Assembly: GCA_021788515.1 (NCBI GenBank)
Contig: JAJYKN010000048.1
Location: 1 to 7,793 of the forward strand
Origin: Nitrospirota bacterium
GTDB taxonomy: Bacteria; Nitrospirota; UBA9217
Length of the DNA stretch: 7,793 bases
Direction: 5' to 3'
Shown here piece after piece: positions 1,735 through 6,089 of this stretch; positions within the stretch are counted from its first letter, which is position 1, and every line of letters begins with the position of its first letter. The notes under the pieces were generated by a model, which saw only the letters and a program-made list of their open reading frames with translations, was not told the origin of the DNA and searched no databases. Made by a program: the position numbers and the translations under genes.

Positions 1735-3381
1735 ATGCTGAAAAAGAAAGACCGTGCCGACGTCAGGCGCGGTAAAAAAGAGAAGGGCGTCGTAGACAGA
1801 ATGGGAAAAGGCTATCTTTCGCTGGTCCTGCATTGTCATCTGCCGTATGTGCGGCACCCCGAGCACGACCGGTTTCTCGAAGAAGACTGGTTGTACGAGG
1901 CGATCACCGAGACCTACATTCCGCTCATCAACGTATTCGACGGACTGGTGAACGACGGCGTGGATTTCCGCCTCACCATGAGCCTGACGCCGACCCTCAT
2001 TTCCATGCTCACCGATCCGCTCCTCCAGCAGCGCTATCTCCGTCATATCAGCCGCCTTATCGACCTTGCCGGGAAGGAGCTCGAACGCACGAAGGACGAG
2101 CCCGAGTTCAACGCCCTGGCCCGAATGTATTTCGAGCTTTTTCAAAACGCCCGCTTCGTCTTCGAGGAAAAGTACGGCCGCAATCTCGTCACCGCCTTCC
2201 GGAAGTTCCAGGACCTGGGCAAGCTTGAAATCATCACCTGCGGCGCCACACACGGCTTCCTGCCGCTCATGAAGAACGCAAAAGCGGTGCGGGCGCAGAT
2301 CGCCGTTGCCGTCCAAGCCCACACGAAACACCTTGGCAGGCCGCCCAAAGGCATCTGGCTTCCCGAGTGCGGGTACTACGAGGGGCTCGATGAGATCCTG
2401 GGCGAGTTCGGCATCCGCTATTTCTTTACGGACTCCCACGGAGTTTTTCACGCGACCCCCCGGCCCAAGTACGGAGTCTACGCGCCGATCTACTGCCCCT
2501 CGGGTGTTGCAGCCTTCGGCAGAGACATCGAGTCGTCCAAGCAGGTCTGGAGCTCCGTGGAAGGGTATCCCGGCGACTATGATTACCGGGATTTCTACCG
2601 CGACGTGGGTTTCGACCTGGATTTCGACTACGTCAAACCGTATATCCATCCCGACGGCATCCGGGTTAACCTCGGGATAAAATATTACCGGATCACGGGG
2701 AATACGAACAACAAAGAACCCTACGTCCGGCAAAGGGCGCTCAATAAGGCTGCGGAGCATGCAGGGAATTTCCTGTTCAACCGGGAGAAACAGGTGGAGT
2801 GGCTTGCGGGAGCATTCCAGGACCGGAAGCCGCTGATCGTGGCCCCCTACGATGCGGAGCTGTATGGCCACTGGTGGTTCGAAGGGCCGGACTGGATCAA
2901 CTACCTGGTCCGGAAGACCGTCTATGACCAGAAAACGGTCCGTTTGATCACTCCATCGGAGTATTTGGAGGAAAATCCCAAGAATCAAATTGCGACGCCC
3001 TCCGCATCCAGCTGGGGGTTCAAAGGTTACTCCGAAGTATGGCTGAACGGGGCCAACGACTGGATCTACCGGCACCTGCACAAGGCCGCGGACCGTATGA
3101 TCGAGCTTGCGCGGATGTTCCCGCAGGCCGACGGGCTCCTGCTGCGGGCCTTGAACCAGGCTGCGCGGGAGCTGCTCCTGGCCCAGAGCTCGGACTGGGC
3201 GTTCATCATGAAGACCGGCAGCCACGTGGAATATGCGGAGCGGAGGACGAAAGAACATTTGCTCCGGTTCACCAGGCTCTACGAGGATGTTACAGGAAAT
3301 CATATTGACGAAGGCCGGCTCGCCGATTTAGAATATATCGATAATGTGTTCCCGGATATCGACTACCGCGTCTATGCTTGA
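1735..3381 (+). CDS. GH57 family 1,4-alpha-glucan branching enzyme (DUF1957 type)
   Basis: A 548-residue cytoplasmic enzyme of the GH57 branching-enzyme type, which cuts an alpha-1,4 glucan and re-attaches it through an alpha-1,6 bond in glycogen synthesis. All five conserved GH57 regions are visible: HCHLPY (residues 33-38), GKLEIITCG (162-170), GIWLPECGY with the expected nucleophile Glu211, APYDAELYGHWWFEG with the expected acid/base Asp373, and ALNQAARELLLAQSSDW (472-488). Trp427 and Trp436 match the C-terminal aromatic gate residues of archaeal GH57 branching enzymes. The length is normal for the short bacterial/archaeal form. The first 22 residues are a Lys/Arg-rich extension before the usual MGKGYLSLVLH start; translation could instead begin at 1801. 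The stop overlaps the next gene by 8 bases. Some enzymes annotated this way act mainly as amylases, so substrate specificity is less certain than family. Confidence 0.92.
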   Translation: MLKKKDRADVRRGKKEKGVVDRMGKGYLSLVLHCHLPYVRHPEHDRFLEEDWLYEAITETYIPLINVFDGLVNDGVDFRLTMSLTPTLISMLTDPLLQQRYLRHISRLIDLAGKELERTKDEPEFNALARMYFELFQNARFVFEEKYGRNLVTAFRKFQDLGKLEIITCGATHGFLPLMKNAKAVRAQIAVAVQAHTKHLGRPPKGIWLPECGYYEGLDEILGEFGIRYFFTDSHGVFHATPRPKYGVYAPIYCPSGVAAFGRDIESSKQVWSSVEGYPGDYDYRDFYRDVGFDLDFDYVKPYIHPDGIRVNLGIKYYRITGNTNNKEPYVRQRALNKAAEHAGNFLFNREKQVEWLAGAFQDRKPLIVAPYDAELYGHWWFEGPDWINYLVRKTVYDQKTVRLITPSEYLEENPKNQIATPSASSWGFKGYSEVWLNGANDWIYRHLHKAADRMIELARMFPQADGLLLRALNQAARELLLAQSSDWAFIMKTGSHVEYAERRTKEHLLRFTRLYEDVTGNHIDEGRLADLEYIDNVFPDIDYRVYA

Positions 3382-4750
3382 CCCCGCCGTACTAAAAGAA
3401 CTCAAAAGAATTCTCGGCGCAGACGGCGTTTCCACCACGCCGGAAGAACTGGTCGCCTACTCGTACGATGCCACGCAGCGGGAAGCGCTGCCGTGGGCCG
3501 TGGCGCGTCCCCAAACTGTTGCCCAGGTCTCGCAGGTCCTTGCGTTTGCCAACCGGGAGCGCTTTCCCGTGGTCCCCCGCGGGGCAGGGACCGGAATGTC
3601 GGGCGGATCAGTGCCGACCCAGGGCGGCGTTGTCCTGTCCTTCGAGCGGATGAACCGCATTCTCGAAATCGACGAGGAGAACATGATCGCCGTGGCGGAG
3701 CCCGGCGTCGTGACCGGAGATCTGCAGCGCGAGGTCGAGTCACGGGGGCTCTTTTACCCGCCGGACCCGGCCAGCCACCGGTTCTGCACATTGGGCGGGA
3801 ATGTTGCGGAGTGCGCAGGGGGCTTGCGCGCCGTGAAGTACGGCGTTACCAAGGACTATGTTCTGGGCCTTGAGGTGGTCCTTCCCACAGGGGAGATCAT
3901 TACGACCGGGGCCCGCACAGCGAAGAGCGTGGCCGGGTATGATCTCACCAAGCTGATCGTGGGTTCAGAAGGCACGCTCGGCGTGGTGACGAAGATCATC
4001 GTGAAGCTTTTGCCGTTGCCGGAAAGCGTGCTCACGCTTTCGGCATTTTTCAGAAGCGTTGACGATGCCGCACGGGCCGCTTCAAAGGTCCTGGCGAGCA
4101 GGATCATTCCGCGGGCGCTCGAATTGATCGACCAGGCCGCGCTCCGGGCCGTGGAAAACTACCTGAAGGAAGACCTGTCCCAGGGGGCCGCAGCCATGCT
4201 GATTGTCGAGGTGGACGGTCCGGCGGAGACCACGGAGCGTGAAAGCGCGAGGGTCGCCGATATCCTGACCAAAGCAGGAGCCACAAGGGTGCAGAGCGCC
4301 GATGCCGGGCCGGAGCGGGAGCAGCTCTGGAAGGCGCGTCGCTCGATCTCGCCGGCGCTGTACACGATCAAACCGAAAAAAATAAACGAGGACATTGTTG
4401 TTCCGCGAAGCAGGATCGCCGACATCCTGCGCGAGATCAACGATATTGCGAAACACTACGATCTGCTGATCGTGAACTTCGGCCACGCAGGCGACGGCAA
4501 CATCCATACGAACATCATGCTCGACGACGTTGATCTGCCGAAAGCCGGGGAGGCAGTGAAGAAAATATTCGCGGCAGTGCTTCGCCTCGGGGGAAGCATC
4601 ACGGGAGAGCACGGGATCGGTATTTCCAAGGCCCCCTATCTCCCCATGGAACTGTCCCCGGACGCGCTTTCCGCCATGAAGCGGATCAAGCAGGCGCTCG
4701 ATCCGAACAATATATTAAACCCGGGGAAGATTTTTCTGAATGCGGAATAA
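3374..4750 (+). CDS. GlcD-type FAD-linked 2-hydroxyacid dehydrogenase/oxidase subunit
   Basis: A 458-residue FAD flavoprotein of the glycolate oxidase GlcD / D-lactate dehydrogenase / D-2-hydroxyglutarate dehydrogenase family. The FAD-binding domain shows VVPRGAGTGMSGGSVPTQGG (residues 66-85), VAEPGVVTGDLQ, YPPDPAS, GGNVAECAGG and KSVAGYDLTKLIVGSEGTLG (184-203). The substrate domain shows FGHAGDGNIHTNIM (His371, His378) and GEHGIG (Glu412, His413), the family's metal and substrate ligands, plus an Arg pair at 322-323. The reaction is oxidation of a 2-hydroxyacid to the 2-oxoacid; the actual substrate cannot be read from the sequence. The chosen ATG at 3374 overlaps the GH57 stop by 8 bases and has no clear Shine-Dalgarno, suggesting translational coupling; an upstream ATG at 3344 lies deep in GH57. 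No GlcE or iron-sulfur GlcF gene follows, so the electron acceptor partner must be encoded elsewhere or be dispensable. Confidence 0.92.
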   Translation: MLDPAVLKELKRILGADGVSTTPEELVAYSYDATQREALPWAVARPQTVAQVSQVLAFANRERFPVVPRGAGTGMSGGSVPTQGGVVLSFERMNRILEIDEENMIAVAEPGVVTGDLQREVESRGLFYPPDPASHRFCTLGGNVAECAGGLRAVKYGVTKDYVLGLEVVLPTGEIITTGARTAKSVAGYDLTKLIVGSEGTLGVVTKIIVKLLPLPESVLTLSAFFRSVDDAARAASKVLASRIIPRALELIDQAALRAVENYLKEDLSQGAAAMLIVEVDGPAETTERESARVADILTKAGATRVQSADAGPEREQLWKARRSISPALYTIKPKKINEDIVVPRSRIADILREINDIAKHYDLLIVNFGHAGDGNIHTNIMLDDVDLPKAGEAVKKIFAAVLRLGGSITGEHGIGISKAPYLPMELSPDALSAMKRIKQALDPNNILNPGKIFLNAE

Positions 4751-5396
4751 AAGGCAAAAAACATTGATCTCGATGTTCACTGTCGTCATCGCTGCTCTGG
4801 CGCTGTTGATCTGTCCATTCTCGTGGGCAGGAAGCGTTTCTGCATCACTGTCTGTCGAAGAGCTCAGTGCTGACGTGCAGGCCCTCCGGCAGGAAGCAAC
4901 GCAACTGGAAGAAGAGAACCAGGGACTTCGCAGGATCCTGGCGTCCCAGGATGATGGCGAACTGTATATTGTCGTGGACACCGAGAGCAACCGGTTGACT
5001 CTTCGTCAGGGCAACGCCGTGCTGCACCAGGCGGTGTGCGGGACCGGAAGCCATCAGTTCATCGAATCCGAGACAGGAACGGACTGGTATTTTGAGACGC
5101 CTATCGGTTCCTTTACGGTTCTCGGAAGAGAGCGGAACCCGGTGTGGATCCGGCCCGACTGGTCCTATGTCGAGGAAAATATGCCTGTCCCGGCGGAGCA
5201 CGATCCGGACCGTCTCGTGCGGGGCGTGCTCGGCAAGTACGCGCTGCTTCTCGGGAACGGCTACAAGATCCACGGAACGAAGTGGACCAGTCTTCTGGGA
5301 ACCCATTTTACCCACGGGTGCATTTCCCTGGGCGATGACGATCTCGAACTGGTCTACAAATCGGTGAAGACCGGGACGAAAGTGTATATTTACTGA
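4740..5396 (+). CDS. Exported/anchored L,D-transpeptidase (YkuD domain)
   Basis: A 218-residue envelope protein. Residues 3-7 are basic, 9-28 are hydrophobic (signal peptide or membrane anchor; possible cleavage after Ala30), and 37-70 form a Glu/Gln/Leu-rich predicted coiled coil. The YkuD catalytic domain follows: YIVVDTESNRLTLRQG (76-91), ETPIGSFTVLGR (119-130), then IHGTKW (177-182) and THGCISL (191-197). Cys194 is the expected nucleophile with His178 and His192. Such enzymes form 3-3 cross-links in peptidoglycan or attach proteins to it, in the periplasm. There is no LysM or other wall-binding domain, so the coiled coil may place it. The start overlaps the glcD-like stop by 11 bases, with GGGGAAGA 9 bases upstream as Shine-Dalgarno. 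Family is sure; physiological substrate is not. Confidence 0.92.
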   Translation: MRNKRQKTLISMFTVVIAALALLICPFSWAGSVSASLSVEELSADVQALRQEATQLEEENQGLRRILASQDDGELYIVVDTESNRLTLRQGNAVLHQAVCGTGSHQFIESETGTDWYFETPIGSFTVLGRERNPVWIRPDWSYVEENMPVPAEHDPDRLVRGVLGKYALLLGNGYKIHGTKWTSLLGTHFTHGCISLGDDDLELVYKSVKTGTKVYIY

Positions 5397-5424
5397 TGAG
5401 GCCCGCTTGAAGGCCGGTTTTGCT

Positions 5425-5461
5425 CTCCGTTCACCCTTCGACAGGCTCAGGGCGAACGGAG
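5425..5461. repeat. REP-like palindrome A
   Basis: An 8-bp perfect outer stem (CTCCGTTC, 5425-5432, with GAACGGAG, 5454-5461), one mismatch, then a 4-bp inner stem CCCT/AGGG (34-37 with 49-52 of the 5400s) around an 11-base loop. Read on the minus strand its loop is GAGCCTGTCGA. It begins 28 bases after the L,D-transpeptidase stop and may protect or end that transcript. Similar sequences are, from recall, abundant in many environmental bacterial genomes. Confidence 0.75.
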
Positions 5462-5470
5462 GGATCATTG

Positions 5471-5502
5471 AAACGATTAACATCAAGGAAACGATTCACA
5501 TT
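5471..5502 (+). repeat. Short direct repeat AAACGATTNACATN between the two REP-like palindromes
   Basis: AAACGATTAACATC (5471-5484) and AAACGATTCACATT (5489-5502) match at 12 of 14 positions with an 18-base period. They fill most of the spacer between the REP-like units. Their role is unknown; two copies 18 bases apart could be a binding site or a replication-slippage product. Confidence 0.45.
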
Positions 5503-5503
5503 A

Positions 5504-5539
5504 TCCGTTCGTGGTGAGCTTGTCGAACCACGTAAAACG
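5504..5539. repeat. REP-like palindrome B, inverted relative to A
   Basis: TCCGTTCG then TGGT (5512-5515), loop GAGCTTGTCGA (5516-5526) and ACCA (5527-5530); with one extra C-G pair each side the stem is CGTGGT/ACCACG. It matches the reverse complement of unit A in its flank (TCCGTTCG) and in 10 of 11 loop bases, while the inner stem changed by three paired substitutions. With A it makes an inverted REP doublet (REPIN-like). Its outer right arm is degraded compared with A. Confidence 0.7.
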
Positions 5540-5567
5540 CTTTTTCGATGACCGGGAACGAATTTTT

Positions 5568-6089
5568 ATGAGAGTAGTATTGAAAAAACTGCTGCCGATG
5601 ATCCTGCTGGTGCCGTTTCTCATGGCCGCTGCGGACGGCGGAGACGCTGTCCGGGACGAGCGCGCGTCACTCGAAGCGATGAGATCCTTGCTGCGCCAAA
5701 AGATCTCCTCGCTCAAGCGCGAACAGGACTTCCTGCTTTTTCAGAAGACGATGTACGCGGCGGACTCAAAGTACCTCATTATCGACGTCAAGCACCGCAC
5801 GGCACAGCTCAAGTACAAGAACAGGCTGCTGAAGGGCATGCGCTTCACCCCTTCAAAAAAGTTCCCGGGCCGCGGGCTCCGGCAGGGCATGCTCGTGCTG
5901 ACAAAAAAAGTGGAAGGAAAGAAGGACCGCGATGTCCTGGTTTTCGGAAAATCGCTCGTTCTGCAGTGGAAACAGTCCATTGTTCCTCCGCAGGAAAAGG
6001 GCCTTCCTTCCATCACGCTGTTGAAAAATGAACTGCTGTCCGTCTACTATGCCGTGGAAGAGGGCGCTCCGGCATATCTCCTTCGCTGA
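5568..6089 (+). CDS. Exported YkuD-like protein lacking the catalytic motif (candidate pseudoenzyme)
   Basis: A 173-residue protein with a signal peptide (MRVVLKKLLPMILLVPFLMA, processing likely near Ala22), a helical segment at about 28-60, then YLIIDVKHRTAQLKYKNRLL (69-88). That strand pattern matches YIVVDTESNRLTLRQG of the L,D-transpeptidase just upstream. The C-terminal 26 residues also align without gaps: SITLLKNELLSVYYAVEEGA here against CISLGDDDLELVYKSVKTGT there. The catalytic Cys is Ser148, and the preceding His-Gly is Leu-Pro. I infer a diverged paralogue that has lost transpeptidase activity; it may bind peptidoglycan or regulate its neighbour. The frame is intact, so it is not a simple pseudogene. 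The start was placed at 5568 because it begins a clean signal peptide; the GTG at 5511 lies inside REP unit B. The Shine-Dalgarno is weak (GGGAACG). A general database annotation would probably be hypothetical protein. Confidence 0.8.
   Translation: MRVVLKKLLPMILLVPFLMAAADGGDAVRDERASLEAMRSLLRQKISSLKREQDFLLFQKTMYAADSKYLIIDVKHRTAQLKYKNRLLKGMRFTPSKKFPGRGLRQGMLVLTKKVEGKKDRDVLVFGKSLVLQWKQSIVPPQEKGLPSITLLKNELLSVYYAVEEGAPAYLLR

Follow-up and report, generated by a model that had tools for sequence, protein, structure and literature searches.

The window analysed here is a 7,793-nucleotide stretch of a Nitrospirota genome (GCA_021788515.1, contig JAJYKN010000048.1; source genome 74% complete). Downstream of a gene for a YkuD-type L,D-transpeptidase (LDT), it carries a gene for a 173-residue protein. 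This protein is a conserved LDT relative for which a YkuD fold is predicted, and it probably serves the enzyme encoded upstream as a dedicated non-catalytic subunit. We refer to it below as the dead protein and to the window's family as f1. The initial annotation, made from the window alone, had placed an inactive YkuD protein next to an active-looking 218-residue paralogue, and both open reading frames (ORFs) are as it described them. The paralogue is active-looking in that it keeps His178, His192 and Cys194, but the second residue past its catalytic Cys (Cys+2) is Ser and not Arg. The signal peptide assigned to the dead protein stands as a hydrophobic N-terminus, seen by eye only. In some homologues, those with GMDG after this segment, a cleavage site is not evident, and the segment may be an anchor that stays uncleaved.

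What ties the dead protein to the LDTs? A BLASTP comparison of the two window proteins gave an E-value of 0.003 over the coil plus first strand only and missed the C-terminal match between them, and two sequences alone are therefore insufficient to settle the relation. When 68 dead-family sequences (alignment A3) were aligned as a profile with 25 LDTs (alignment A2), the full alignment covered 145 columns with a score of 52.5 and a probability of 93.9. With the coil removed, the YkuD-like part scored 31.8 over 105 columns (hhalign). The highest score among 200 column shuffles was 20.3, the reversed profile likewise reached 20.3, and the coil alone scored 17.4. The profile-profile alignment reproduced the C-terminal and first-strand matches that had been drawn by eye (CISLGDDDLELVYKSV versus SITLLKNELLSVYYAV, YIVVDTESNRLTL versus YLIIDVKHRTAQL), and it pairs Cys194 with Ser148 and His192-Gly193 with Leu146-Pro147. 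The HGT motif is lost, as had been claimed: in the alignment without the coil, His178 in IHGT, which is the earlier of the catalytic His residues, pairs with Q133. Searches of genomes with the A3 profile also matched LDTs, namely the LDT of genome G003 (E 8e-6) and, in G244, a frame overlapping its LDT (E 6e-4).

Database searches with the dead protein of the window gave no Pfam family at E<=10, no credible NCBIfam match and no match in a PDB sequence search, and a profile search of PDB sequences returned eight matches only, all at E 0.45 or worse and over the helix. PF03734, the YkuD family found in the LDT, was absent among the 25 Pfam families listed (of 32) for the 68 dead-family members. 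The predicted model of the dead protein matches YkuD structures and does not have the LytM fold. Profile comparison shows that the protein shares descent with YkuD proteins over its whole length, with Ser148 at the position of the Cys, and its fold is predicted to be that of YkuD, as the initial annotation had supposed.

Homologues of the dead protein number 252 at E<=1 (phmmer) or 420 at E<=0.01 (profile search), and three relatives in the named collection come from Nitrospirae/Nitrospirota metagenome assemblies. Residue counts were taken over 121 sequences, the window protein plus 120 listed homologues, the best 120 being listed in each search. None of the 121 has Cys at position 148, which is occupied by S in 33, V in 27, F in 20, A in 16, R in 8, T in 7, Y in 6, I in 3 and L in 1. 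Position 133 is Q in 83, R in 29, K in 4, E in 2, L in 2 and H in 1, and not one of the 121 combines such a His with Cys at 148. Judged by these positions, the dead protein lacks both the catalytic Cys in (S/T)HGC and the preceding His of an LDT. We considered Ser148 as a new nucleophile and rejected it because the position is variable rather than a conserved serine. Elsewhere, Ser67 and Lys114 are invariant (121/121 each) and Asp66 is present in 120 of 121. One dead-family member (L008:1-516, minus strand, genome G004) carries IIHGKRYS in place of the KIHGTKYT of the LDT; both of its sister genomes have Q at this point, which makes a chance reversion no less likely than a relic.

Within the window's order, the dead protein is present in 11 of 14 genomes, and the same 11 carry the orthologous LDT. 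The gene is open, with no internal stops, at 11 of 11 loci, among them that of the window. The genes for a GlcD-type oxidase, the LDT and the dead protein are consecutive on one strand in nine genomes (the window, G003, G004, G005, G006, G009, G010, G011 and G012). In G008 the LDT runs off its contig, and because the contig with the dead gene starts with codons that match the end of the LDT, we count it as the tenth linked genome, which brings adjacency to 10 of 11 in f1. The absence of the pair from G007, G002 and G013 is uninformative, because the operon is cut at contig ends in G007 and G013, and G002 (74% complete) also lacks the neighbours. The active and dead YkuD proteins are separate ORFs in the window, with stops between them, and in the linked genomes. 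The two genes overlap or lie <30 bp apart in linked f1 genomes other than the window, where 171 bp separate them. This gap holds palindrome-like elements at 5427-5459 (CCGTTCACCCTTCGACAGGCTCAGGGCGAACGG) and 5505-5532 (CCGTTCGTGGTGAGCTTGTCGAACCACG) that resemble dispersed repeats of the repetitive extragenic palindromic (REP) type, and they may be an insertion, given how much shorter the gap is in relatives.

Among 295 Nitrospirota genomes the A3 profile found no convincing partner outside f1, and restriction of the dead partner to f1 was a reading that we rejected once the genes that follow the LDT in other families had been read and profiled. These genes encode a diverged counterpart of the dead protein. 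A profile of eight such partners (A8) matches 73 of the 295 genomes, none of them in f1. Outside f1 there are 78 LDT loci in 76 genomes (E<=1e-20), and the diverged partner lies directly downstream on the same strand at 71 of them; two of the other seven are at contig ends (G060, G207) and five belong to family f18. The genome tally, combined by hand, is confined to LDTs of this type and leaves aside the more distant ones that these genomes also encode. It comes to 83 with both proteins, four with the LDT only (G207, at a contig end, G136, G205 and G241), one with the partner only (G187, a 32-residue match) and 207 with neither. Of the 87 genomes that carry this type of LDT, 83 thus encode the partner as well. 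The pair extends well beyond the window's family, and its linkage is much stronger than one window could reveal.

An alignment of 27 diverged partners matched A3 with a probability of 96.2 and a score of 63.2 (100 shuffles <=22.9). Against the LDTs the two dead families scored 48.1 (shuffle maximum 19.8) and 46.7 (run without shuffles), so that they are joined to each other more strongly than either is to the LDTs. By eye, the 27-row alignment contains no HGC motif; seven of the 27 have a Cys within the last 70 residues, none of them at the LDT Cys position. Pfam gave no match in the seven diverged partners tested.

The surroundings of the pair outside f1 hint at what it does. We read the operon in 20 longer loci (L156-L175) of the 78, where the four-gene order is a lipoprotein of about 200 residues, a DpaA-like YkuD protein, the LDT and the dead YkuD protein (for example, L170:313-3397). 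The second YkuD gene, labelled DpaA-like, precedes the LDT in 20 of 20 loci, and its product has no Arg at Cys+2 in any of them (M in 10, S in 3, A in 3, Q in 2, G in 2). The protein encoded in front of it has a lipobox by a simple pattern in 17 of 19 cases, one of these matches (L163) being upstream of the likely start, and ends in Lys in 12 of 20 and in Arg in 2 of 20. A profile of six such lipoproteins (A9) has a match upstream of the LDT, on the same strand and within 1.5 kb, at 77 of the 78 loci; similarity to DUF4398 is sub-threshold and confined to one member. The f18 LDTs (L096, L102, L104, L108, L110) have HGCIQ instead of HGC(I/V)R, with the lipoprotein 204-394 bp ahead, and their loci would represent a simpler version of the module. 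In Escherichia coli, LDTs attach the lipoprotein Lpp to peptidoglycan and the YkuD hydrolase DpaA (LdtF) detaches it, and the available sections of that report give Ala or Asn at Cys+2 for most DpaA-like proteins and Arg for transpeptidase-active LDTs (PMC8263019). Attachment is through the C-terminal Lys of Lpp (PMC10434034, in part). On the strength of these parallels the operon outside f1 seems to resemble a Braun-type tether between wall and membrane, and we regard the four genes as a candidate Braun-type outer-membrane tether system.

The window's family departs from this pattern. Ser stands at Cys+2 in the f1 LDT at 11 of 11 loci (L012-L022) and in 117 of 120 listed LDT homologues (the motif was not found in the other 3), whereas in other Nitrospirota families the residue is Arg at 44 and Gln at 5 of the 49 LDT loci read among the 78. 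In a tree the f1 LDTs fall together (support 100/100), and the stem leading to them is long, at 1.54 changes per column. Since Ser replaces Arg, the f1 LDT reaction may not be ordinary transpeptidation. The A9 profile detected the lipoprotein in 0 of the 14 genomes of the window's order (positive control, 94 of 295 genomes), and a DpaA-like relative is located elsewhere in 9 of the 14. In f1, then, the LDT and its dead partner have been kept while the remainder of the module has not, which speaks for a dead protein that works for the LDT itself; with no lipoprotein detected and Ser at Cys+2, retention of the partner would link it with the enzyme rather than with the lipoprotein.

An intriguing question is how a dead YkuD protein might serve an active one. 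Both window proteins consist of a hydrophobic stretch, a helix and a YkuD domain. The helix of the dead protein carries a heptad at positions 35, 42, 49 and 56 with Leu in 66, 67, 68 and 68 of 68 sequences, and that of the LDT one at positions 42, 49, 56 and 63 with Leu in 22, 24, 24 and 23 of 25. The two heptads have a matching register relative to the first strand. The coil is acidic in 25 of 25 LDTs, whereas of the 68 coils in the dead family 48 carry a net positive charge, 13 a net negative charge and 7 none. Such charge complementarity is suggestive only. The simplest reading of the helices would be a heterodimeric coiled coil, though homodimers fit as well. In a one-chain model of both proteins (alignment A5) the linker is disordered, the listed PDB matches are again YkuD/LDT-type structures, and the model weakly suggests a fixed arrangement of the two proteins.

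In the reading that we favour, both proteins would be exported and their N-terminal helices would form a coiled coil, the helix being acidic in the enzyme and in the dead protein for the most part neutral or basic. This would place the dead YkuD domain in physical contact beside the active one, where it could alter the activity, localisation or choice of acceptor of the latter. The likely ancestral job, given that outside f1 the pair lies in an operon with an often Lys-ending lipoprotein and a DpaA-like YkuD protein, would be for the LDT and its dead subunit to attach the outer-membrane lipoprotein to peptidoglycan, with the DpaA-like protein detaching it. More tentatively, and with the odds somewhat against so specific a proposal, the pair may be a two-subunit Nitrospirota LDT in which an obligate dead subunit, joined through the coiled coil, belongs to the attaching half of the tether operon. 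The f1 enzyme, with Ser for Arg and the lipoprotein lost, would work only with its twin and on a new acceptor.

Several observations weigh against a dedicated subunit. Charge pairing of the coils is not universal, since the dead coil is negative in 13 of 68. The one-chain model has a predicted template modelling score of 0.65 and a mean predicted local distance difference test score of 75.7 (62.8 for two of the five models), and it comes without predicted aligned error or a control. The eight diverged partners are linked only moderately to A3 (probability 75.6) and to A2 (83.1). At the five f18 loci with HGCIQ the lipoprotein is there and the dead partner is missing, so such an LDT does not strictly need a partner. 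Adjacency could also reflect shared regulation without contact. Finally, in G001 the two genes are unlinked: the dead gene is at L049:3623-4141 (contig 146) in another neighbourhood, and the LDT is still behind GlcD. The same unlinked genes would suit an independent peptidoglycan- or lipoprotein-binding protein that keeps the substrate groove and makes no contact with the LDT, a role on which there has also been speculation for the Cys-less second domain of LdtPae1 (PMC10434034, in part). We think this unlikely. The former active-site position varies among S, V, F, A, R, T, Y, I and L, unlike a conserved ligand groove, the partner accompanies this LDT in nearly every genome that has it, and it is kept in f1, where the lipoprotein was not detected.

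Catalysis of a different kind, through other conserved residues of the scaffold, is less probable still. It has a precedent in Lpg1514, a YafK-type YkuD protein that reportedly uses Ser and not Cys for beta-lactam turnover (PMC13400389, in part), and the invariant Ser67 and Lys114 and the nearly invariant Asp66 could be thought to serve it, Lys114 pairing with Lys93, which is invariant in the eight diverged partners. All three residues, however, lie off the catalytic Cys/His positions of the alignment, and because active LDTs have Lys/Arg at the aligned position 130, Lys114 looks inherited rather than newly catalytic. As for a decaying LDT duplicate on its way to a pseudogene, the loss of the catalytic residues is what it would predict, and the whole dead gene, compared between the window and G008, has a ratio of nonsynonymous to synonymous rates (dN/dS) of 0.56, which is not significant alone against neutrality (one-sided p 0.055) and also weighs against the subunit reading. 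That value arises because the first 30 codons evolve fast (1.61); the YkuD part, with 7 synonymous and 7 nonsynonymous changes, gives 0.30 and the coil 0.27, both below the 0.35 that bounds them in this pair. The neighbouring genes give 0.23 (LDT), 0.11 (GlcD), 0.16 (GH57) and 0.03 (HD), and the dead gene gives 0.33 between G005 and G006 and 0.29-0.40 in three further pairs with large dS (1.26-1.62), one more pair being saturated. With low dN/dS in domain and coil, hundreds of homologues, a gene that is open in the 11 genomes of the order that have it, residues invariant across the aligned members and diverged counterparts in the same position across the phylum, we reject decay, to which we give almost no credence. 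A dedicated non-catalytic subunit of the LDT therefore remains our preferred reading.

Table 1. Positions in the window of the dead protein, its partner and their main sequence features.
Feature	Position	Strand	Basis
Dead YkuD-fold protein (pseudo-L,D-transpeptidase), 173 residues	5568..6089, stop included	+	ORF, homologue family, predicted fold
Predicted coiled-coil helix, residues 26-64, Leu heptad L35/L42/L49/L56	5643..5759	+	Helix H26-64 in predicted model
Degenerate YkuD domain, residues 66-173	5763..6086	+	hhalign without coil; VIA-align best row range 65-173
Q133, position of LDT catalytic His178	5964..5966	+	Profile alignment
Ser148, position of LDT catalytic Cys194	6009..6011	+	Profile alignment
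Partner: YkuD L,D-transpeptidase-type protein, 218 residues	4740..5396	+	ORF; PF03734, E 8e-19
Partner's N-terminal helix, Leu heptad L42/L49/L56/L63	4854..4949	+	Alignment; helix 39-70 in one-chain model
Partner His178 (IHGT motif), presumed catalytic base	5271..5273	+	Sequence; invariant 25/25
Partner His192-Gly193-Cys194 motif	5313..5321	+	Sequence; invariant 25/25
Partner Ser196 at Cys+2	5325..5327	+	Sequence comparison with other Nitrospirota LDTs
Gap between LDT gene and dead gene, 171 bp	5397..5567	.	Intergenic

From left to right, the window holds a partial frame on the minus strand, which we take from the frame itself to be FabF-like, followed by genes for a DUF4912 protein, a GH57 branching-enzyme-type protein, a GlcD-type flavin adenine dinucleotide oxidase, the LDT, the dead protein and an HD-domain protein. 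The oxidase gene (3344-4750) overlaps the start of the LDT gene by 11 bp. The GH57, GlcD and LDT genes are consecutive in the f1 genomes read, which are odd metabolic surroundings for a wall enzyme.

To our knowledge, little is understood of how LDTs are controlled and directed. If the reading offered here is true, it would be, within the scope of our searches, the first case of an LDT with a pseudoenzyme dedicated to it as a partner, and this non-catalytic partner would help to control cell-wall fastening in these bacteria. The operon moreover suggests that Nitrospirota may tie the outer membrane to the wall by a non-Braun lipoprotein. LDTs form wall crosslinks that are insensitive to most beta-lactams, and they also fasten lipoproteins to the wall (PMC10434034, in part). 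Among the literature matches listed there was neither a separate dead LDT partner nor this operon, subscription journals being mostly outside that scope.

The nearest described case is LdtPae1 of Pseudomonas aeruginosa, a tandem YkuD protein whose second domain has QLGKIR and no Cys; the sections available give its role as unknown and its architecture as found in no other LDT (PMC10434034). There the active and dead domains share one polypeptide, whereas the Nitrospirota dead protein is a separate, phylum-wide gene product that, unlike the dead domain of LdtPae1, has lost the His motifs too. The E. coli system of LdtA, LdtB, LdtC, DpaA and Lpp is like the Nitrospirota operon in combining a lipoprotein, LDTs and a YkuD protein without Arg at Cys+2, but the parts of that source at hand describe no dead YkuD protein (PMC8263019). 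The Nitrospirota lipoprotein, at about 200 residues, is also longer than Lpp. Lpg1514 of Legionella likewise shows Cys-independent use of a YkuD-superfamily scaffold, yet, according to the portion consulted, it keeps the canonical Cys and an activity of its own, and its Ser dependence has no counterpart at Ser148, which is not conserved (PMC13400389). LdtJ of Acinetobacter baumannii has a fitness role independent of its active-site Cys, but in the account available it is an active enzyme with a second role and not a dead paralogue (PMC12548408). In logic, the dead YkuD protein is comparable to EnvC, NlpD, ActS and DipM (for DipM, PMC10336132, in part), dead relatives that control wall enzymes; these have the LytM fold and are described as acting on amidases and other autolysins, whereas our protein has a predicted YkuD fold and a putative LDT partner. 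By its sequence it, too, is a wall-enzyme homologue without catalytic residues. Pseudoenzyme partners of cell-wall enzymes are thus already known as a kind, and what is new, as far as our searches show, is a separate dead LDT that stands beside the enzyme across a phylum.
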